Part shown: in pieces, positions 989 through 14,567 of the stretch
Layout: every line of letters begins with the position of its first letter
How positions within the stretch are numbered: position 1 is the stretch's first letter
Source: a virus
Length of the DNA stretch: 22,638 nt
Direction: 5' to 3' (one strand)
Virus record (IMG/VR): IMGVR_UViG_3300037847_001659
Location: 790 to 23,427 of that record
Notes under the pieces: model-generated
Databases searched by the model: none
What the model saw: the letters and a program-made list of their open reading frames with translations, nothing else
What the model was told of the DNA's origin: nothing
Position numbers and translations under genes: made by a program

Positions 989-1213
989 TTACCTTATATA
1001 ACTTAATACTTGTTTAACTGTACTACGAAGTTGGATTAATCGTTCCAGAGAATTGATCCTCCCCTGGCTGCGGTATATTTCCAGTTCCGATGTTGCCACC
1101 GCCAGTACCTGTAACTCCAAGTTCTTGAGGTGCTTGAGGTACTCCTCCAGCTCCTTCCATTGTTTGTGGTTCACTAGAGAGTTGAGCTTCTTCGCCTGTG
1201 TTTTGTCCAGCAT
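989..1213 (-). CDS. Small helical protein overprinted on the portal 3' end
   Basis: This 74-aa frame (MLDKTQAKKLNSLVNHKQWK...) starts at ATG 1213 inside the portal gene and ends 34 nt beyond the portal stop, 2 nt before the next gene. About 190 nt are read in both frames. The product looks like a genuine compact amphipathic-helix protein rich in Leu, Lys and Glu, ending in a QGRINSLERLIQLRSTV segment. Phages often carry a short helical gene of this style after the portal. The portal's own C-terminus here is Gly/Pro/Asn/Gln-rich and looks unconstrained, as expected where a second frame is under selection. The ribosome binding site is weak (AGGTATGCAAA before ATG). Function unknown; it fills what would otherwise be a small gap in a close-packed operon. 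Confidence 0.65.
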   Translation of the reverse strand: MLDKTQAKKLNSLVNHKQWKELEEYLKHLKNLELQVLAVATSELEIYRSQGRINSLERLIQLRSTVKQVLSYIR

Positions 1214-3218
1214 TTTGCATACCTATTATTTGAGCCATAATAGCTGCTTCTTCAGGATCGTTGAGTATTTCATCAGGATCTAAATCTAAGCTATAGGCTA
1301 GTTCACTTATTAACTTAGAAATTTTAACAAAAGGAGCAATAGCAGGGCTTTGTGCAGTTTGTAAGAACATAGTTAATCTTTGTGATCTTACTTCTTTCTG
1401 CATAAGACTGTTTGTTCCAGAAGCATTTATTTCTAAATCGCCTTTAACATCCATATCACCTTCAAAGAACTGCATGTTCCATTGAAAGTAAGCTTCCCCC
1501 AAAGGCTTCAATAAAAAGTCATCTAGGTTTTTAACAACAGTTTTAATATTTAAACTCGCTGCACCTAATAGCATTGACATTCCAGAAGCTGTCCTTGTCA
1601 TACTCTGAACACCTGTTTGTCCGTGCGAGTATGATGGTATTCCTGTTTGTTCATCTGCAAGTTGTCTAAACTTGTCAAACATCATCATATTTTCATTAGA
1701 TGTGTTTGGAAACTTTAATCCGTGTATTGCTTGTCCGGGCATCCCTGCTTGTCTGCGGAATATTTTTCCCGGATATATCTCCATTGACTGTCCGCCTACT
1801 AAAGCAGACTCATCAATATCAAAGACTACAGAGCCTGATAGAGCTAAGTTATCTACTGCCATTCTTGCGTGACCATTCATCACTTGTTGGCTATCGTCCA
1901 TATTCTCAGCTACACCGATACCAAAAAAGTTGTAAGGGTTTCTTTCGTATGGAAAAGCGTGATAAGGAATACGATAAGGAGTAAATGGGTTTATTACTGC
2001 TCGTAATAATTTATTACCAGTTATCCAAGCATTTATCTGTACTTCATCTAAATCATCAATATCATCAGGGAGATCAATGCCTACTTCTCTAGCATACTCC
2101 GCATCCATTATTCCCCAATATTCTAGAACTTCGTAGTTCCCTTGATAGTCTTCACTACCTCTGGAATCATCTTTTAATTTACTTTCAAAATCTTTTTCTT
2201 CGTAGTTAGGCCCCATTTGTAGACAATCTCTAATTGCATCTTCATCAAAGTAAGGCATGTTGCGTAGCTGTCTAAGCTGACTACGATTCATTTTATGGCG
2301 GTGTATTACAAACTCACACTCTTCCATATTAGTTGCTGCAGGATCAGGATAAAAATCCCAACAACTTACAAATTCTATTCTAGGTACTCTAACTTCTAAA
2401 GGATTATATTTTCTTTCACCTTCTTCCGTTTCTTCCCACTTATGTAACTTTTTATTAAAATTAAAAGGCCCTTTAACAAGACCTGTGCCTAACATAGCAG
2501 ATTCTAATAAAGCGTTTCTTATTTCGGAAGATCCACTCGATTCTTCTATTTGATCGTGGATAAGTTTTTCCATTCTTCTTGCAGCTTTTTGTGCAGGATT
2601 TAATTCTAACTTACTAGGATCAGGGCTATATCCTTCCACTAGCATATCGTCAGCTTGATCTTCTACAGAGTCTGTGAAGATTCCTTTACCAAAAGTAGCT
2701 CCAGCTTTTAGAGTTCTACCGTCTCCTTCGTATCCTACATCATAAGGATTTTCTTCTTGAGGAGGATCTTCTAAACGATTACCTATGTTATCAGGAAGAG
2801 ATGTTTCCATTCCCGGTTGTGGATTAGCTGTATCTAAATGCGCTGCTCCAAATTCACCTTCAGGGATTTTAGTTTCTGTAACACCTATAGGAAACTTACC
2901 AGTTCCAAATATAACATCTACAAGCTGACCAAATGCAGCAAGTACTTTTGTTTTTGTAACCTTTACAAATATTCTAGACTTTTCAGACTCTCTAAACTTA
3001 ACAGAGTTGCTATACATTCCACGATAGTTTTCATATGCTCTTAACCATCTGCGCTCATCCATATCTCTTTTGTCTTCGGCTTGAGCAAATCTAGATTTTA
3101 TTATTCCTACTAGATTAGATTGTTGATCTTCTTCAAGTTTTAAAATACTGCCTGTTTCGCCTTCGACTTCTTCGTAGATGTTATCAGCGTTTAAAAATGT
3201 ATTTTCTTTTTCTGCCAT
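1023..3218 (-). CDS. Portal protein (P22-like length)
   Basis: This 731-aa protein would form the dodecameric ring at the head vertex through which DNA is packaged and released and to which the tail joins. The call rests on position directly after the terminase large subunit (ATG 3 nt past that stop), on length close to P22-type portals, and on typical segments: an N-terminal helical start with VFVKVTKTKVLAAFGQLVD-like residues near 85-105, a CWDFYPDP sequence, a YHAFPYERNP stretch, and TGIPSYSHGQTGVQSMTRTA ahead of GMSMLLGAAS. These last segments match the conserved wing/stem region of phage portals. Residues ~665-731 are Gly/Pro/Gln/Asn-rich and overlap the gene at 989-1213. Confidence in a portal is high; the exact family is inferred. 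Confidence 0.88.
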   Translation of the reverse strand: MAEKENTFLNADNIYEEVEGETGSILKLEEDQQSNLVGIIKSRFAQAEDKRDMDERRWLRAYENYRGMYSNSVKFRESEKSRIFVKVTKTKVLAAFGQLVDVIFGTGKFPIGVTETKIPEGEFGAAHLDTANPQPGMETSLPDNIGNRLEDPPQEENPYDVGYEGDGRTLKAGATFGKGIFTDSVEDQADDMLVEGYSPDPSKLELNPAQKAARRMEKLIHDQIEESSGSSEIRNALLESAMLGTGLVKGPFNFNKKLHKWEETEEGERKYNPLEVRVPRIEFVSCWDFYPDPAATNMEECEFVIHRHKMNRSQLRQLRNMPYFDEDAIRDCLQMGPNYEEKDFESKLKDDSRGSEDYQGNYEVLEYWGIMDAEYAREVGIDLPDDIDDLDEVQINAWITGNKLLRAVINPFTPYRIPYHAFPYERNPYNFFGIGVAENMDDSQQVMNGHARMAVDNLALSGSVVFDIDESALVGGQSMEIYPGKIFRRQAGMPGQAIHGLKFPNTSNENMMMFDKFRQLADEQTGIPSYSHGQTGVQSMTRTASGMSMLLGAASLNIKTVVKNLDDFLLKPLGEAYFQWNMQFFEGDMDVKGDLEINASGTNSLMQKEVRSQRLTMFLQTAQSPAIAPFVKISKLISELAYSLDLDPDEILNDPEEAAIMAQIIGMQNAGQNTGEEAQLSSEPQTMEGAGGVPQAPQELGVTGTGGGNIGTGNIPQPGEDQFSGTINPTS

Positions 3219-3221
3219 TTA

Positions 3222-4865
3222 CTAATATCCAAATGTTGAGTCTGACGGTTTATAAATATCACTTTGTATTCTTAACCTTCTGTCATACGGATGATCAACT
3301 CTTGGTCTGCTCATTAATAAATAACGTAGCGCATCATAAGCGTGATCAGAAGCCTTAGTATCTACATCTTCTGAATTAGTTTTAGATAATGGAATACCTT
3401 GTAACTCTCTAATTAAATTAGTACAACTACTTACAATCTGTAGTCTTGGTCTTCCTTCGTGTCGCTTTCTTAAATGTTCGTGTATCTGAACTTTACCTGC
3501 AACTCTGTTTTTATCTGCCCTTCTTAACTTATGACCTGCATTGACAAGTGTTTCTCCAATAGTAGGCCCTGAATAACCTGTTCTAGCCCATGCAGCAGTA
3601 TCTAATACTCCTGGTATAGACTTAACTTCACTTTCTTCCATATATGTTATTTTATCAGCTAACGCTTTCCCTGTAAGACCTTTCTGGTAGAGTTCTCTAT
3701 ATATTATGATGGTCTTGTCTTCGGGATCAACGGCAGCCCATAAACAACAACTTTCTGCGGCATATCCATAATCTATGCCTTTTATTCTTTCCCACCAAGA
3801 CGGTATTTCAAAAGGAGCTATAATATGTGTTTCTCTTTCAAACTCTGCAAACGCTGCTCCCTCTGCAATATCCCAATTACCTTCAAGTAACTGTTTGCGT
3901 TGAACAGCAGGAAGCGAGTTAAGCATCCTTTCATATTCACCATCTTCAGCTAGATAAGGGTTATCCTGTAATCTAGCAGGGATAAATTTTCTTGTAAGTC
4001 CATCGTGTCCTATAAAAGCTTTATTAGACTCCGATGGCAATACATATCTTTTCTTTACCCAATGCGCACCCACTCCACCTGGGTTTGCTGTACATCTAAG
4101 ATAAGTTTTAAGATTAGGATCTGTAGTTCTTAATCTAGACGCTAGATAGTTCCAACCAAACTCTGTTGGAAGGTGTGTTATCTCATCAAAGCCTATCCAA
4201 CTGTATGCTTGTCCTTGATAACGATAAACATCCGAGTCTCTTTCTAAGAATCCAAACTCTATCTTTGCTCCGCTAGGAAAGTTCCAGAGTTTTTCTACTT
4301 CTTTAAACTTTGCTCCTTTAAAAGCTTTAGGATAAAGTTCTCTCGACTTATCTATTAATTCTCTTAATTCAGGCATTGACCTTCTAAGAATCAACGCTCT
4401 GTGTACTGGAATGTGGCAAGATCTTAAAGGATCTATTAGCATTGCATAGCTTTTACCGCCACCAGCAGCTCCACCATATAAGACATCCTTTTCTGGTGCA
4501 GCTAAAAAATCTTTCTGTGGCCCTTCGTTGGGCATAAACTCAACATAAGAACCTGTGTCATCTAAATGTTTTTGTATAGCATCTGGTAATTGTTTACTTT
4601 CTGCTTCAGTAATAACATTAGATGTTAAAACTTTTTTACTTTTATCTAACTCTTTTTCTGCTTTTTTTAAAGATCTCCGCAACTTTGTTACTTTAGAGTT
4701 CTTTTTCTTTAAAGCCTTCTGAGCATGTAACGCTGCTCTAACGTCTGATAACTCAGAATTTTTTGGTCTACCACGTTTTTTTTGTGGAGTTCCGTCCTTC
4801 TTTAGTATATAGTTCCCTTGAGCATCTGTCAAGTATTTATTTGGATTTTTTTCCCAATCTTCCAT
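3222..4865 (-). CDS. terL: Terminase large subunit (packaging ATPase-nuclease)
   Basis: This 547-aa protein pumps DNA into the prohead and cuts it. The Walker A motif is GGAAGGGKS (residues 131-139), with K138 as the catalytic lysine. Walker B is WIGFDEITH (223-231). The RNase H-like nuclease domain starts with GIDYGYA (363-369), with D365 as a likely metal ligand, followed by D422 (LDTAAWAR) and the C-terminal SDHAYDALRY (506-515). The first ~100 residues are an unusual highly charged extension with a KKRGRPKNS sequence, which has the core of an AT-hook DNA-binding motif, followed by a Lys-rich coiled-coil-like stretch. The start is ATG 4865 and overlaps the preceding gene by 29 nt. The portal follows after TAG-TAA-ATG. 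Confidence 0.95.
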   Translation of the reverse strand: MEDWEKNPNKYLTDAQGNYILKKDGTPQKKRGRPKNSELSDVRAALHAQKALKKKNSKVTKLRRSLKKAEKELDKSKKVLTSNVITEAESKQLPDAIQKHLDDTGSYVEFMPNEGPQKDFLAAPEKDVLYGGAAGGGKSYAMLIDPLRSCHIPVHRALILRRSMPELRELIDKSRELYPKAFKGAKFKEVEKLWNFPSGAKIEFGFLERDSDVYRYQGQAYSWIGFDEITHLPTEFGWNYLASRLRTTDPNLKTYLRCTANPGGVGAHWVKKRYVLPSESNKAFIGHDGLTRKFIPARLQDNPYLAEDGEYERMLNSLPAVQRKQLLEGNWDIAEGAAFAEFERETHIIAPFEIPSWWERIKGIDYGYAAESCCLWAAVDPEDKTIIIYRELYQKGLTGKALADKITYMEESEVKSIPGVLDTAAWARTGYSGPTIGETLVNAGHKLRRADKNRVAGKVQIHEHLRKRHEGRPRLQIVSSCTNLIRELQGIPLSKTNSEDVDTKASDHAYDALRYLLMSRPRVDHPYDRRLRIQSDIYKPSDSTFGY

Positions 4866-5148
4866 ATACTTTATCTACATGTTTCTTTAAGCCCATACGA
4901 CTGATCTTTCTGCCTGTCTCAGCTTCTAACCAATCGACTCCAATACCTAGACTTATTTCATCTTTATTTACAGCTTCTGCAACCTCTTTAAGTACACTAA
5001 GTTCAGAAGGTATAGGTTTTAAGTAACCATCAACAGGAGACAACTCATAACCAAAAGGCACAGTAGAAGAGGTTCGTCTGACATATTCATCTGGAATTAA
5101 CATACCCATATCTTTTAGTTGCATAAACAATCCGCCAAGACTACTCAC
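4837..5148 (-). CDS. HTH-containing protein upstream of terL
   Basis: This protein is about 103 aa. The C-terminal part (LGIGVDWLEAETGRKISRMG...) looks like a helix-turn-helix of the kind seen in recombinase and phage DNA-binding domains. The N-terminus (SSLGGLFMQLKDMGMLIPDE) resembles conserved marine-phage proteins found next to terL. I chose GTG 5148 because AAGG lies 7 nt before it; GTG 5151 and ATG 5124 are alternatives. The gene overlaps both the previous stop (5145) and the start of terL (4865). A DNA-recognition accessory to the terminase is a reasonable inference, but the protein at 6744-7181 is the better small-subunit candidate. Confidence 0.75.
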   Translation of the reverse strand: MSSLGGLFMQLKDMGMLIPDEYVRRTSSTVPFGYELSPVDGYLKPIPSELSVLKEVAEAVNKDEISLGIGVDWLEAETGRKISRMGLKKHVDKVYGRLGKKSK

Positions 5149-5432
5149 CACTTAACCTTATGCGACCAGTATCTTGCGCTTAGTTTACTAGGATTAGCGT
5201 CCTGTGCATTATGTCTTGCATAGTAACTTCTTTTTCTAGCTTTATCTTTTTTACTCTTTGGATTCTTCCCTGCTCCTTTTACTCCTTGTTGGCCAAAGCG
5301 AATAGTTTTTATTTTATCTCCAACTTTAGCTACAACCACATGTGATTTAGTAGGATGATTAGGAGTACGTTTTGGTTTATTAAAACCAGATACTCCTGCT
5401 CTAGCAAGTCTTGGATCTCTTTTTTTAGCCAT
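5145..5432 (-). CDS. Basic conserved phage protein ending in SARYWSHKVKW
   Basis: This 95-aa protein is rich in Lys and Arg. It contains KIKTIRFGQQGVKGAG near residues 40-55, then RKRSYYARHNAQ, and ends KLSARYWSHKVKW. I recognise this architecture as a small protein conserved among marine phages, always of unknown function. Its start at 5432 overlaps the stop of the upstream gene by one base and its stop overlaps the next start. The high charge suggests nucleic-acid binding, and its place just before the terminase suggests a role in DNA packaging or head assembly, both inferred. Confidence 0.8.
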   Translation of the reverse strand: MAKKRDPRLARAGVSGFNKPKRTPNHPTKSHVVVAKVGDKIKTIRFGQQGVKGAGKNPKSKKDKARKRSYYARHNAQDANPSKLSARYWSHKVKW

Positions 5433-5689
5433 TATTTCTTTTTCCTTTTTTTGCTTTTCTTCTTATGCAGTCCGTGTCTAGCGTGTTGCTTCCCTGCAGC
5501 AGTTGCAGCTCTTTTCTTTTTATTAGCCGCTGCTAGTTTTCTTCTACCTGCAGCAGTAGATTTAAGTTTTTTAATCTTGGCAGAAGGAGCATATACCTCT
5601 CCAGTTTCAGAAGACTTCTTACCGCTTGGAGTTCTCCATTTCTGTTTAGTCCATTTTTTAAGACTTCTTTGACTTTTTTTTAGTGCCAT
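5432..5689 (-). CDS. Highly basic small protein, DUF5872-like
   Basis: The product is 85 aa with roughly 35-40% Lys+Arg. The N-terminus (SLKKWTKQKWRTPSGKKSS) resembles the 'LxKWTKQxWRTKSG' start of the DUF5872 family as I remember it. The C-terminus is a Lys-rich tail (HKKKSKKRKKK). Start ATG 5689 has AAGGA 6-7 nt upstream. Its reading frame overlaps the previous gene by 32 nt. It may bind DNA; the function is unknown. Confidence 0.75.
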   Translation of the reverse strand: MALKKSQRSLKKWTKQKWRTPSGKKSSETGEVYAPSAKIKKLKSTAAGRRKLAAANKKKRAATAAGKQHARHGLHKKKSKKRKKK

Positions 5690-5957
5690 GCTTTTTCCTT
5701 ATTGCTTCTTTACCTTTCTTAGCGATCAAAGCTTGTTGAGGTTTACCTGCAACTTTAGCTCTTTGTTCAAGAACAGTAAGTATTTGTATTTTTCTAGCAA
5801 AGGGTTTCTTTATACGCTTTACTTTAGCAACAGTAGCTCTTGCATCTTTTACAGTTGCAAACTTAATACTGACAGTATCTTTAGGATTTTCATCCGTATA
5901 TAATCTTCTGCCACTACCTTTAGGTTTTTTACCTGTACCTTTTTTTGGATCAGGCAT
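5658..5957 (-). CDS. Basic conserved phage protein (KPKGSGRRLYTDENPKD)
   Basis: This 99-aa protein begins with a Gly/Lys-rich leader and KPKGSGRRLYTDENPKDTVS. A helical region (ATVKDARATVAKVKRI...KIQILTVLEQRAKV) follows, and it ends in a Lys-rich tail. The central segment is one I associate with small marine-phage proteins of unknown role. The gene overlaps its upstream neighbour by 8 nt and its downstream neighbour by 32 nt. Nucleic-acid binding is plausible from the charge alone. Confidence 0.75.
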   Translation of the reverse strand: MPDPKKGTGKKPKGSGRRLYTDENPKDTVSIKFATVKDARATVAKVKRIKKPFARKIQILTVLEQRAKVAGKPQQALIAKKGKEAIRKKHGTKKKSKKS

Positions 5958-6126
5958 TTTTCTTTGCTTTTTTCTTTGCAGTTTTACTTAACTGATTAAA
6001 GTGATAAAGTCTTTTACTTGTTTTAGTATGAGTCTTATTGGAATGTAACTCACCATTAGGCATTTTATGTGTGTTACCTTTAAACTCAGTACCATCTCTA
6101 AAGTAATGTTTAACTCCTTTAGCCAT
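5950..6126 (-). CDS. 58-aa basic protein (MAKGVKHYFRDGTEFKGNTH)
   Basis: Translated directly from the minus strand: ATG 6126 to TGA 5952-5950, 58 aa. It starts MAKGVKHYFRDGTEFKGNTH, contains NGELHSNKTHTKTSKRLYHF, and ends in AKKKAKKNA. The composition (His, Lys, Thr) and the compact overlap with both neighbours (ATG next to the upstream stop at 6126-6128, TGA overlapping the ATG at 5957) support a real gene. It resembles a small protein that recurs in pelagiphage-like genomes. Function unknown. Confidence 0.75.
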   Translation of the reverse strand: MAKGVKHYFRDGTEFKGNTHKMPNGELHSNKTHTKTSKRLYHFNQLSKTAKKKAKKNA

Positions 6127-6320
6127 TACATCTTCTCCATATCTTGTATTGATTTGTAATCAACTGCTCCACCGCCCATCATTTTCTTACGCTTTGAGCC
6201 ATACATACCTCCGCCCATCATCTTCTTGCGTTTAGAACCGTACATTCCACCGCCCATCATTTTTTCTCGTTTTTTCGGTCTGCCTTTTTGACTACCGTAT
6301 GTACCTTTTCCCATTGGCAT
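6126..6320 (-). CDS. Gly/Met/Lys repeat protein
   Basis: This 64-aa protein begins MPMGKGTYGSQKGRPKKREK and then carries tandem copies of a 13-residue unit, KRKKMMGGGMYGS, at about residues 20-50, ending in VDYKSIQDMEKM. The two complete repeats differ at the third base of 8 of 13 codons and are identical in protein, so the repeat is kept by selection and is not a recent duplication. Lys clusters alternating with a flexible Met-Gly-Tyr segment suggest a nucleic-acid- or protein-contacting tether. A GRPKK sequence (AT-hook-like) lies near residue 13. It shares its stop base with the next ATG. Confidence 0.75.
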   Translation of the reverse strand: MPMGKGTYGSQKGRPKKREKMMGGGMYGSKRKKMMGGGMYGSKRKKMMGGGAVDYKSIQDMEKM

Positions 6321-6514
6321 TATTTGTACCCTCCACCTTTTGCTTTGTATTGTTTAGCTAACATCTGAGCTTTCCTGGCACTCCATTGTCCGGGACGACC
6401 ACCTTTAGAACCTGCTTTGATTCTTTCAAACAATCTTTTTCTCATAGTAGGCTTAGTGTAGTTACCTGCTTTGTTGACTGTTGATTTCTTCTTTTTACTT
6501 CTTTTGACGGCCAT
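6320..6514 (-). CDS. Basic conserved phage protein (GQWSARKAQMLAKQYKAKGG)
   Basis: The product is 64 aa: MAVKRSKKKKSTVNKAGNYT, then TMRKRLFERIKAGSKGGRPG, then QWSARKAQMLAKQYKAKGG and GYK. I recognise the C-terminal half as a strongly conserved small protein of marine phages. It is very basic and lacks acidic residues apart from one Glu. It overlaps the upstream 46-aa gene by 20 nt and ends one base into the next start. It probably binds nucleic acid, by composition only. Confidence 0.8.
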   Translation of the reverse strand: MAVKRSKKKKSTVNKAGNYTKPTMRKRLFERIKAGSKGGRPGQWSARKAQMLAKQYKAKGGGYK

Positions 6515-6743: not shown

Positions 6744-7181
6744 TTATTCCTCTTGTTCAATAACAGTATAATGCTCTTGATCTATTTCAATGGGAGCTTT
6801 ATCTGGCATTAAGAAGATACCTCCCCCTACGTTATGGTTCACATCAACCTTATCTACCTTCGATACACCTACTCTATCAAGTAAAGTGGTGGCAGCTGCA
6901 AGTTTATTATTAGCTTGAACTACTGGCCTCTTAGACTCCATAATCTCTACGAGCTTGAAAGCTGCTTTAGGAGCTGATGTGGCTAGTACTTCTTTAGTTA
7001 GCTCCAGTATTTCAGACTTCAAACTCTTAACAACATGGTGATGCGGAGAAGAATAACCAGCAAGTTCTGCTGCTTTCTTTGCATCCCCTTGAGTTTCTAC
7101 GAGATGTTTAAGAAAAGACTGTTGTTTTTCTGTTAGTTCTCGTTTTCTCTCTGTTTTTTCTATGTTATTTAAAACTGCCAT
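6744..7181 (-). CDS. terS: Terminase small-subunit-like protein
   Basis: This 145-aa protein starts at ATG 7181 (MAVLNNIEKTERKRELTEKQ). The N-terminal LTEKQQSFLKHLVE...GDAKKAAELAGYSS is the helix-turn-helix typical of small terminases, which recognise phage DNA for packaging. It is followed by helical oligomerisation-like segments (LELTKEVLATSAPKAAFKLV, LAAATTLLDRVGV). A longer frame reaches 7241, but its extra 20 residues fall across the promoter's -10 and -35 boxes, so I prefer ATG 7181. It is the first gene of the minus-strand operon. The promoter -10 box ends only 8 nt from the ATG, so the mRNA may be leaderless. Confidence 0.8.
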   Translation of the reverse strand: MAVLNNIEKTERKRELTEKQQSFLKHLVETQGDAKKAAELAGYSSPHHHVVKSLKSEILELTKEVLATSAPKAAFKLVEIMESKRPVVQANNKLAAATTLLDRVGVSKVDKVDVNHNVGGGIFLMPDKAPIEIDQEHYTVIEQEE

Positions 7182-7189
7182 AGTAGAAT

Positions 7190-7217
7190 AGTATATAGTC
7201 CCCTGCAGATTTGTCAA
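7190..7217 (-). promoter_or_regulatory. Sigma-70 promoter for the packaging/structural operon
   Basis: On the minus strand there is TTGACA (7217-7212), a 16-bp spacer, and TATACT (7195-7190). The -35 box is a perfect consensus and the -10 has 5 of 6 matches. The predicted start point (about 7184-7182) falls right at the ATG at 7181, so the first mRNA would have almost no leader. The flanks CTTGACAA and ACTATATACTA are shared with the plus-strand promoter. Confidence 0.75.
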
Positions 7218-7234
7218 GTTTTTTACGATAATGC

Positions 7235-7263
7235 TTGACAAGTGGCAATCTGAACTATATACT
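7235..7263 (+). promoter_or_regulatory. Divergent sigma-70 promoter for the plus-strand arm
   Basis: TTGACA (7235-7240), a 17-bp spacer, and TATACT (7258-7263) make a near-perfect host-type promoter. Its -35 faces the -35 of the minus-strand promoter, 17 bp apart, giving the inverted repeat TTGTCAAG (7211-7218) / CTTGACAA (7234-7241). Transcripts would start near 7270 and cross more than 900 nt before the first clear plus-strand gene at 8185. Confidence 0.75.
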
Positions 7264-7443
7264 AAAGTAATCCAAACCCCCAGGGTTGCATTAGTATATC
7301 CCCCACCTATTCCCCATAGACTATATAGCTCTTTAGAGTCTTTAGAGACTAAGGAGACTCGCGTTGAATTTTTATAGTAACTGGTTTATACCCTAAATTT
7401 CCCCAAAATGTATGAGTATTGTATATATATAGGGAGGGGTGGC

Positions 7444-7575
7444 ATGGTCTCCTGCGTCCCCATAGATCTTCATAGACTCAAGAGCAGAACTAATGCCCTC
7501 GTAAACTCGGAAGACTCTTTATCCTGTAGGAACTTCATAGTCTTTGAAGATCTAAGGAGGCCCAGGAGAACATAA
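7444..7575 (+). CDS. Candidate 43-aa ORF in the control region (doubtful)
   Basis: ATG 7444 to TAA 7573-7575 gives 43 aa (MVSCVPIDLHRLKSRTNALV...). An AGGGAGGGG sequence lies 5 nt before the ATG and would be a strong ribosome binding site. Against it: the product is poor in Lys, rich in Ser, Arg and Cys, and unlike its neighbours, and the frame runs through several AGACT repeats. It might be a leader peptide or a chance ORF. Confidence 0.25.
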   Translation: MVSCVPIDLHRLKSRTNALVNSEDSLSCRNFIVFEDLRRPRRT

Positions 7576-7602
7576 ACACCCCGAATAAAGAAACTAATCT
7601 AG

Positions 7603-7630
7603 TTGACAGGGAAATAAGAGACTGTAAAGT
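7603..7630 (+). promoter_or_regulatory. Possible weak internal promoter
   Basis: TTGACA (7603-7608), 16 bp, then TAAAGT (7625-7630). The -35 is perfect and the -10 has 4 of 6 matches. The region between also forms part of a bulged hairpin (GGGAA...TTCCC, 7609-7640). It could start a transcript covering the structured elements at 7816-7995. Confidence 0.3.
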
Positions 7631-7815
7631 GTCTATTCCCTACTCGAAACTCAACAGACTCCGAAGACTTAACAGGGCTAGATTACCCTTATAGATAACC
7701 TATCTATTTGATTTACCTACCATTTCCCCATCATCTCATTTCATACTACTGTATCTGCAAAGTAAGTTTAGCGGGGTGGTAATTTATTATTTTTTATTAT
7801 TAAAATTAGCGACAA

Positions 7816-7918
7816 AATCTGGGTGTAATTTGTGGGTAACTTTGTAGAGCTAATCAGCGAGAATGGGATTCTCAAAAATCCCAGTTGAGCTTTAGCGATT
7901 AAAGTTATCCATCAGATT
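7816..7918. ncRNA. Nested long-range stem structure (RNA element or origin hairpin)
   Basis: Three nested complementary arms close on a hairpin: AATCTG (7816-7821) with CAGATT (7913-7918); GGGTAACTTT (7834-7843) with AAAGTTATCC (7901-7910), nine pairs plus one G-U; and AATC (7852-7855) with GATT (7897-7900). Inside are two competing hairpins: GAGAAT/ATTCTC (7859-7873) and TGGGATT/AATCCCA (7864-7883), which share bases and cannot form together. No known riboswitch family is recognised. Since a plus-strand promoter lies upstream, it may be transcribed as a leader or small RNA; as DNA it could be a cruciform. Confidence 0.5.
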
Positions 7919-7931
7919 ATGCCAAGAAATA

Positions 7932-7995
7932 AATAATGCTCTGAGTCTGCAAAGACGAAAGAGTAACCGAAGTCTGCAAAGACGAGGGCATTATT
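7932..7995. ncRNA. Closed stem with two identical GCAA-loop hairpins
   Basis: AATAATGC (7932-7939) and GCATTATT (7988-7995) are perfectly complementary and enclose two copies of AGTCTGCAAAGACGA (starting 7944 and 7971). Each copy folds as GTCT-GCAA-AGAC, a 4-bp stem with a GNRA tetraloop. The result is a three-way-junction-like shape. A run of eight T follows at 8015-8022. It may be a second domain of the element at 7816-7918. Confidence 0.5.
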
Positions 7996-8128
7996 CCGAG
8001 CGATAGCGAGAAAATTTTTTTTCTTAAATATGAAAATATTTCTTGACTTCCCCTGGAAAATGTGTCTGTTGGTCTTTCGTTTGTCACAAATATATATAAA
8101 TAAATCTATATTTTATATATGATTATGC

Positions 8129-8158
8129 TTGTACTCAGTCACAAAAATAAGCTATACT
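8129..8158 (+). promoter_or_regulatory. Promoter with shared TTGYACTCAGTCACAA element
   Basis: TTGTAC (8129-8134), 18 bp, then TATACT (8153-8158), 27 nt before the ATG at 8185. The 16-bp sequence covering the -35 and the start of the spacer (8129-8144) recurs with one change at 11046-11061, also directly upstream of a gene. Such a repeat across -35 and spacer could be an operator or an activator site. Confidence 0.55.
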
Positions 8159-8184
8159 ATTAAATATATTTAAGGGGGTTTAAG

Positions 8185-8322
8185 ATGGCATCAAGAAAAA
8201 ATAAAGTAGCAATACCATTTTATAATAAACATCTTGGAACTTGGAGAAAGCGAACAGCAGAAAGGAAAGTCCGAGCAGAATCCAAAAAAATTATTAGAAA
8301 CGAAACAAAGGATTTAAAATGA
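8185..8322 (+). CDS. 45-aa basic protein, first gene of the plus-strand arm
   Basis: Translated directly: ATG 8185 to TGA 8320-8322, 45 aa, starting MASRKNKVAIPFYNKHLGTW and ending IIRNETKDLK. A strong purine-rich site (AAGGGGG) precedes the start. The stop overlaps the next ATG as ATGA. It is rich in Lys and Arg with one conserved-looking aromatic patch (PFYNKHLGTW). Its position just behind an early-type promoter would suit a host-takeover peptide, but that is only inference. No family is recognised. Confidence 0.65.
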   Translation: MASRKNKVAIPFYNKHLGTWRKRTAERKVRAESKKIIRNETKDLK

Positions 8323-14459: not shown

Positions 14460-14541
14460 AGACAAAGAAAATTTTATCAAAGCATTACCATTATCTGTTT
14501 GGATAATATTAATTTTAGGAATTGTGATATGGGGAGTTTGA
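14449..14541 (+). CDS. 30-aa single-pass membrane peptide
   Basis: Translated directly: ATG 14449 to TGA 14539-14541, MKDKDKENFIKALPLSVWII then LILGIVIWGV. A charged N-terminus is followed by one hydrophobic helix to the C-terminus. No clear ribosome binding site is seen, so coupling to the overlapping gene before it would be needed. Its stop codon lies inside the -35 box of the next promoter. It could be a small membrane toxin or regulator, or a chance ORF. Confidence 0.45.
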   Translation: MKDKDKENFIKALPLSVWIILILGIVIWGV

Positions 14542-14567
14542 CAATCCCCTCTCACTTCTTTTATAAT
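14538..14567 (+). promoter_or_regulatory. Consensus sigma-70 promoter before the replication block
   Basis: TTGACA (14538-14543), 18 bp, TATAAT (14562-14567): both hexamers are perfect matches. Predicted transcription start near 14574, 17 nt before the TTG start at 14591 and 7 nt before its GGAG. It likely drives expression of the block from the 99-aa gene through at least the ssDNA-binding protein. Confidence 0.75.

Follow-up and report, generated by a model that had tools for sequence, protein, structure and literature searches.

Back-to-back promoters at the early-late junction of an HTVC103P-type pelagiphage relative, with a probably leaderless terminase small subunit gene

The window, by which we mean the whole stretch of 22,638 nucleotides analysed, runs from base 790 to base 23427 of a virus record that is 23,427 bases long. 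Late genes occupy its minus strand below position 7181 and early genes its plus strand above 8185, and the interval 7190-7263 is the point at which the early (+) and late (-) transcription units diverge (Table 1). The window TerL is 66-68% identical to that of pelagiphages HTVC115P, HTVC103P and HTVC104P, and at most about 49% identical to that of HTVC033P, HMO-2011 and the CRP phages. TerS ranks the relatives in the same way, with 53-54% identity to HTVC103P, HTVC104P and HTVC115P and no more than 45% to the others. Judged by its nearest TerL and TerS, the phage is a relative of the HTVC103P-type (HMO-2011-like) pelagiphages, and the isolated relatives indicate that the group probably infects SAR11 hosts. 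The HTVC103P-type group is named in PMC8528129, the accessible part of which remarks on the HMO-2011-like packaging genes. Between terS and terL the window carries 7 small ORFs, mostly lysine-rich (4837-6514, minus strand), and the terS-terL distance differs several-fold across relatives.

Table 1. Genes and sequence features at and around the junction (window coordinates)
Feature	Position	Strand	Description
Portal gene	1023-3218	-	First large structural gene after the terL promoter
terL, terminase large subunit	3222-4865	-	547 aa
Second late promoter (predicted), in terL codons 12-21	4804-4832	-	TTGACA 4832-4827, 17-nt spacer, TATACT 4809-4804
terS, terminase small subunit	6744-7181	-	145 aa; PHROG terminase small subunit families; ATG start without Shine-Dalgarno
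Predicted 5' end of terS mRNA	7181-7184	-	At the ATG or no more than 3 nt before it, from promoter geometry
terS (late) promoter (predicted)	7190-7217	-	-35 TTGACA 7217-7212, 16-nt spacer, -10 TATACT 7195-7190
A/T-rich stretch separating the two -35 boxes	7218-7234	.	5-56 bp in relatives, changing mostly by 1-2 or 10-11 bp
Early promoter (predicted)	7235-7263	+	-35 TTGACA 7235-7240, 17-nt spacer, -10 TATACT 7258-7263
Early leader without Shine-Dalgarno-bearing ORF	7264-8184	+	About 920 nt; first Shine-Dalgarno-bearing ORF starts at 8185
Conserved leader element	7383-7461	+	TATGGTCTCCTGCC-type end in relatives; candidate packaging or control site

Each of the two junction promoters matches the sigma-70 consensus at 11 of 12 positions. 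They lie on opposite strands with adjacent -35 boxes and with 16 and 17 nt between -35 and -10, inside the 16-18 nt that belong to the geometry of a divergent sigma-70 pair. The original prediction had described two near-consensus, outward-facing promoters with their -35 boxes 17 bp apart, and had placed the end of the minus-strand -10 box 8 nt before the ATG (7181-7179); both statements agree with the sequence, and CTTGACAA and ACTATATACTA, which it named as common to the two promoters, are indeed present in each. The window contains five sites of at least 11/12 in total; dinucleotide shuffles average 1.14 (100 shuffles, of which 4 had four or more such sites). None of 200 shuffles produced two such sites pointing away from each other with their -35 boxes 60 bp or less apart. 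With boxes, positions and conservation (see below) directly observed, both sites would be expected to act as promoters. Near the expected early 5' end the window also has a GC-rich CCC..GGG inverted repeat (7270-7290, plus strand), similar to that in many relatives; short GC-rich inverted repeats at this place score 5.47 against 4.20 in shuffled sequence and differ among loci.

Conservation was assessed in 80 contigs fetched by TerS similarity alone and 2 isolates, which together with the window gave 83 entries. Two entries (L009 and L075) were excluded because the locus is cut by contig ends. Both promoters, one adjoining the terS ATG and the other facing away, were found in all 81 testable entries, so that the arrangement is kept in relatives, as had been put forward for checking. 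This conservation is decisive over the chance statistics and establishes that the promoter pair is real. Using HTVC115P TerS as query, we gathered two more lineages. In the HTVC115P-type, TATAAT lies 7 nt before the terS ATG in 26 of 26 untruncated loci, and in the HTVC103P-type it lies 6 nt before the ATG, with TTGTCA as the -35 box, in 15 of 15 loci; both sets were read by eye, and in 5 of the 15 the start codon was reassigned from the script's choice. The leaderless-type layout is absent in L137-L139 and in CRP-like loci lower in the same list. HTVC103P-type and HMO-2011-type phages resemble the window in how terS, terL and portal are ordered and in the sequences of these genes. Unlike the window, HMO-2011 and most of the CRP phages examined have terS inside an operon, overlapping or abutting the preceding gene, and in the HTVC033P-type loci (16 inspected out of 80 fetched) the promoter is distant, 175-670 nt ahead of terS. 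Since the layout is present in the window's lineage and in the HTVC115P- and HTVC103P-types, and absent in the HTVC033P-type, HMO-2011 and CRP phages, it is a property of the HTVC103P/115P/window branch. A query independent of terS, the DNA pattern of the leader element, retrieved 45 contigs. In 44 of them a terS promoter of the leaderless type lies no more than 700 bp away, and in the remaining one the locus is cut by the contig end.

Transcription usually starts about 7 nt past the -10 box. At the terS promoter this corresponds to position 7183, and the A of the terS ATG is two nucleotides beyond. The distance from -10 box to ATG is 6 nt in 36, 7 nt in 27, 8 nt in 17 and 9 nt in 1 of the 81 entries. 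At the canonical +1, 53 distinct sequences have A (26), C (21), T (5) or G (1), and a pyrimidine directly precedes the ATG in 44 of them. Shine-Dalgarno sites are in use at other genes of the phage. With an assumed anti-Shine-Dalgarno sequence, the median pairing energy of terS upstream regions is -1.0 kcal/mol (43 distinct sequences), and that of 24 early-strand starts hand-chosen from the ORF list is -7.5 kcal/mol. The Shine-Dalgarno sites of the window's terL and portal genes are also weak (-0.5 and -3.1), so that the weak site at terS is a tendency and not a clean split, and weak translation is not unique to terS. A predicted +1 on or within a few nucleotides of the AUG, together with no Shine-Dalgarno sequence, is the combination that characterises a leaderless message. 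The earlier proposal that the packaging mRNA starts at the ATG or within 3 nt of it thus gains strong support from the conserved 6-9 nt distance, and it is very likely that the terS mRNA is leaderless or nearly so, its exact 5' end being placed by promoter geometry.

It might be argued instead that terS is translated from an upstream TTG (7217 or 7241) on a transcript begun further upstream, the codon at 7241 having been named earlier as the start that would speak against a leaderless message. The terS frame of the window is indeed open up to TTG 7241. Against this, reading upstream from the terS ATG to a stop codon or through the 110 bases covered meets no in-frame ATG, GTG or TTG in 21 of the 53 distinct sequences; 19 of the 53 have an in-frame stop between the -35 box and the terS ATG, and TTG 7217 consists of the first bases of the terS -35 box itself. 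We therefore regard an upstream start as highly improbable.

An exact search for the same boxes revealed a third copy on the minus strand, 33 nt into terL, which the original prediction does not mention. It is found at the same codons in 61 of the 69 entries with a readable terL start (33 nt in; where another start codon was chosen, the offset reads 24 or 48 nt). Among 28 nonredundant terL sequences, only 1 of 40 conserved leucine columns uses a single codon, and this is codon 12, a TTG, which makes up 12.7% of leucine codons. The corresponding figures are 1 of 19 for threonine (codon 13), 1 of 15 for isoleucine (codon 20) and 4 of 20 for tyrosine (including codons 11 and 19), with 30 of 352 conserved degenerate columns overall. 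Leucine 21 is encoded by CTA or CTT and never by TTA, the commonest leucine codon (51%), which would spoil the -10 box. A peptide LTxxxGxYIL is kept in most relatives, and the promoter could be an unused by-product of it. We consider this improbable, since the leucine, threonine and isoleucine codons are frozen solely where the promoter boxes fall, the -10 box persists as TATAAT where the peptide reads SII instead of YIL, and the sister lineages carry a promoter before portal instead. HTVC115P- and HTVC103P-type loci have no terL copy but one promoter of 11-12/12 further downstream (22 of 22 scanned), which in three annotated isolates lies just before portal, with 16-20 nt to the annotated portal start where this was checked. 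Codon usage thus indicates that the putative terL promoter is held by selection on codons. It is missing in 8 of the 69 entries (L041, L042, L054, L058, L075, L073 and the isolates L001 and L002); the six that are not isolates have no 11/12 site downstream of terS within the stretch searched, except one at +4567 in L073.

On the early side, most relatives have 700-1290 nt between terS and the first Shine-Dalgarno-bearing early ORF. As a single strand, the window leader folds far more stably than shuffled sequence (z -5.3 for 7400-7600 and z -8.1 for 7270-8190). Within the leader lies a conserved element: in an iterated profile search seeded with the window, 75 of 78 early-side sequences score past 30. 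Over 44 aligned sequences it has invariant stretches, and the sequence past it diverges. It sits 266-334 bp from the terS ATG (44 contigs) and about 210 bp from the early -35 box. RNAalifold predicted no consensus pair among the 44 aligned elements, and Rfam 15 gave no match to the leader at gathering score, with only weak matches below it, on which grounds the leader was dropped as a known RNA. CTGGTT/AACCAG is enriched 12.5-fold in the leaders (47 occurrences against 3.7 expected) and is present in 30 of 30 tested. From its position beside terS, our guess would be that the element is a terminase recognition site. Record ends were set aside as a clue to the packaging cut, because the HTVC115P record begins at an ATG and was probably cut at a gene start by its authors. 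We also noted a repeated short motif, TCT(A/G)GTTAA, in the leaders of 30 loci. At one place in the element most loci show a run of G and others a run of C, as if by a short inversion. In the HTVC115P (L001) leader, a GC inverted repeat followed by a T run, resembling an intrinsic terminator, was seen by eye about 60-90 nt past the early promoter.

It had further been proposed that one regulator could act on both promoters through their shared repeat. Outside the hexamers, the two promoters have TATATACT in common. Of the distinct sequences, 13 of the 16 from the window's lineage carry these letters on both sides and none of the other 37 do, and the letters recur at the terL promoter. Being lineage-specific and recurring there, they look like a promoter variant, and a simple conserved operator was rejected for the same lineage restriction. 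The repeat is an unlikely basis for common control; common control itself is hinted at by the spacing, which changes in nearly whole turns of the helix.

The distance between the two -35 boxes ranges from 5 to 56 bp across relatives. Its changes were followed between close relatives, taken as disjoint pairs with 80% or more identity in TerS DNA, and a change within 2.1 bp of whole turns was counted as near-integral. In 40 such pairs the gap differs by 1 bp (18 pairs), 2 bp (2), 10 bp (10), 11 bp (8), 13 bp (1) or 22 bp (1), and in none by 3-9 bp. Near-integral turns account for 19 of the 20 differences of at least 3 bp, where about 40% would be expected, and for 9 of 10 when distinct transitions are counted manually; these pairs are disjoint yet share history, and are not phylogenetically independent. 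The distance from the early -35 box to the leader element behaves similarly (15 of 20 near-integral), as compared to 5 of 15 and 2 of 6 in two control stretches beyond the element, each against the same expectation of about 40%. A Rayleigh test on 22 distinct gap values was weak (p = 0.051), and the core regular expression used in that analysis matched HTVC103P- and HTVC115P-type elements poorly. Single alignment gaps did not set the stretch from promoter to element apart from what lies beyond it (Fisher p = 0.23); whole blocks are replaced in many pairs, and only the net spacing is informative. Long -35 gaps are built from A-tracts with a 10-bp period. The distances between the -35 boxes could have come about through a habit of slippage by a 10-bp A-tract unit; this would hardly account for the distances from the early -35 box to the element. 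We had taken the variable -35 distance as proof against joint control and dropped this view after the analysis of close pairs. As judged from these distances, the junction region seems to work as one unit. Since helical phase is kept despite changing distances, it is probably controlled as one DNA-protein assembly.

Two other accounts of the junction were considered. In one, two independent constitutive promoters meet by chance, and the leaderless start is a by-product of compaction with no regulatory meaning. Both promoters are near-consensus, they stand at variable distances (5 to 56 bp), such phages have compact genomes, and HTVC033P-type relatives manage with a terS promoter 175-670 nt away, all of which would fit. 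Yet compaction is not general, as the early side keeps its long leader in most relatives; the spacing changes are phased, and the 6-9 nt between -10 box and ATG is kept in three lineages. We find this account doubtful. Somewhat less probable still, in our estimate, is a single repressor or activator which switches both promoters by binding to the imperfect inverted repeat. The spacers of the two promoters are more alike at their own locus than in shuffled pairings (5.89/12 against 5.22, with 1 of 2000 shuffles as high), helical phase is maintained between the -35 boxes, and the dyad is extended in several long gaps (GTCTTT...AAAGAC beside the -35 boxes). These points are set against the lineage restriction of the shared letters and their recurrence at the terL promoter, distances that vary by up to five turns, and the fact that no regulator gene was identified.

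The model that we favour, and which we judge rather likely as a whole, combines the divergent junction, a leaderless terS, a bypass promoter, terminase dosage and phased joint control. Two near-consensus host sigma-70 promoters would fire outward from the junction. The late transcript would begin at the terS AUG or within 3 nt of it, and terS would be read from a leaderless or near-leaderless message. A second sigma-70 promoter down the late operon would add portal and capsid transcripts that skip terS and the start of terL. With the leaderless start translated weakly and the second promoter bypassing the terminase, the latter would be kept scarce relative to portal and capsid. The promoters and the leader element would be under joint control as a DNA-protein assembly, held by shared bent A-tract-rich DNA or by a wrapping protein. 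The promoter sequences, their positions and conservation, the codon constraint and the phased spacing are established here; what we infer from them is that the promoters are active, where exactly the messages begin, that the leaderless start is poorly translated, the part played in dosage, and the assembly. In the available part of PMC3017554, acuR, a leaderless first gene in Rhodobacter sphaeroides, is translated far below its operon partners. Weak leaderless translation of this kind, together with a promoter that skips terS, makes dosage the simplest joint reading. What speaks against the model is that it places strong host promoters on the late operon, though late genes must stay off early. 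A bolder version would merge control with the start of packaging: the leader element would be the site that terminase recognises, and the few TerS molecules translated from the leaderless mRNA would gather on it, wrapping the DNA in phase with the two promoters. In this way they would silence the junction and tag the genome for packaging. We regard this version as a long shot; if true, the terminase would both start packaging and serve as the early/late switch.

Back-to-back promoters are also found in phage lambda, where the start sites of PR and PRM are about 85 bp apart. As is predicted for the junction described here, one of the pair starts at the AUG of a gene for a DNA-binding protein, cI, the message of which, the classical leaderless one among phages, is cited as such in the part of PMC3017554 available to us. 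In lambda the leaderless gene is the repressor, whereas here it is the terminase, and the leaderless strand is the late one. No conserved lambda-type operator past the promoter boxes was found in the 53 distinct sequences; in view of the phased spacing, a protein may still be bound there. In the accessible text of PMC4351075, mycobacteriophage Corndog (cluster O; promoters PL1/PR2 and PL6) likewise has divergent sigma-70-type promoters that are predicted to be leaderless with +1 at the first codon, and Corndog-type phages likewise have a predicted promoter within a coding region. These phages differ in having a mycobacterial host and belonging to another phage family, and the prediction was made in five genomes. 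Both divergent mRNAs are predicted to be leaderless in Corndog; here this holds for the late one alone, its early counterpart carrying a long leader. The acuR-acuI-dddL operon of Rhodobacter sphaeroides resembles the late operon as an alphaproteobacterial operon headed by a leaderless gene, and differs in being cellular, with one promoter and a known repressor (PMC3017554, as far as available). The present system departs from these cases in four respects: the gene is that of a terminase, the two directions are asymmetric, the spacing is phased, and an embedded promoter is supported at the level of codons.

In the literature searched, mostly outside subscription journals, neither these promoters nor a leaderless terS is described. 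The words 'promoter', 'intergenic' and 'non-coding' do not occur in the available part of PMC9038755, which describes HMO-2011-type phages as dominant and broadly distributed in the ocean. The pelagiphage transcriptomes found cover HTVC022P and HTVC027P alone (PMC12753301, available in part). Little is known of gene timing and balance in pelagiphages without their own RNA polymerase, and this layout offers exact places at which to look, namely the predicted leaderless start of the late message, the promoter concealed within the terL coding sequence, and the junction with its spacing in helical phase. That the layout is kept in relatives suggests that it matters for the balance of packaging and shell proteins. 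If the terminase is balanced against the capsid through its start codon and an embedded promoter, the phage would clearly illustrate how selection acts on overlapping codes.

Further promoter-like sequences were observed in the early region. A TTGACA-18-TATAAT promoter is seen at 14538-14567 (plus strand) of the window, shortly upstream of an ORF listed from 14591. In L066, L068, L077, L080 and others, a further consensus promoter, TTGACA-17-TATAAT, lies on the early side 2.2-2.9 kb from terS, and in some loci its -10 box is surrounded by a CCGACAA/TTGTCGG inverted repeat of operator-like appearance.
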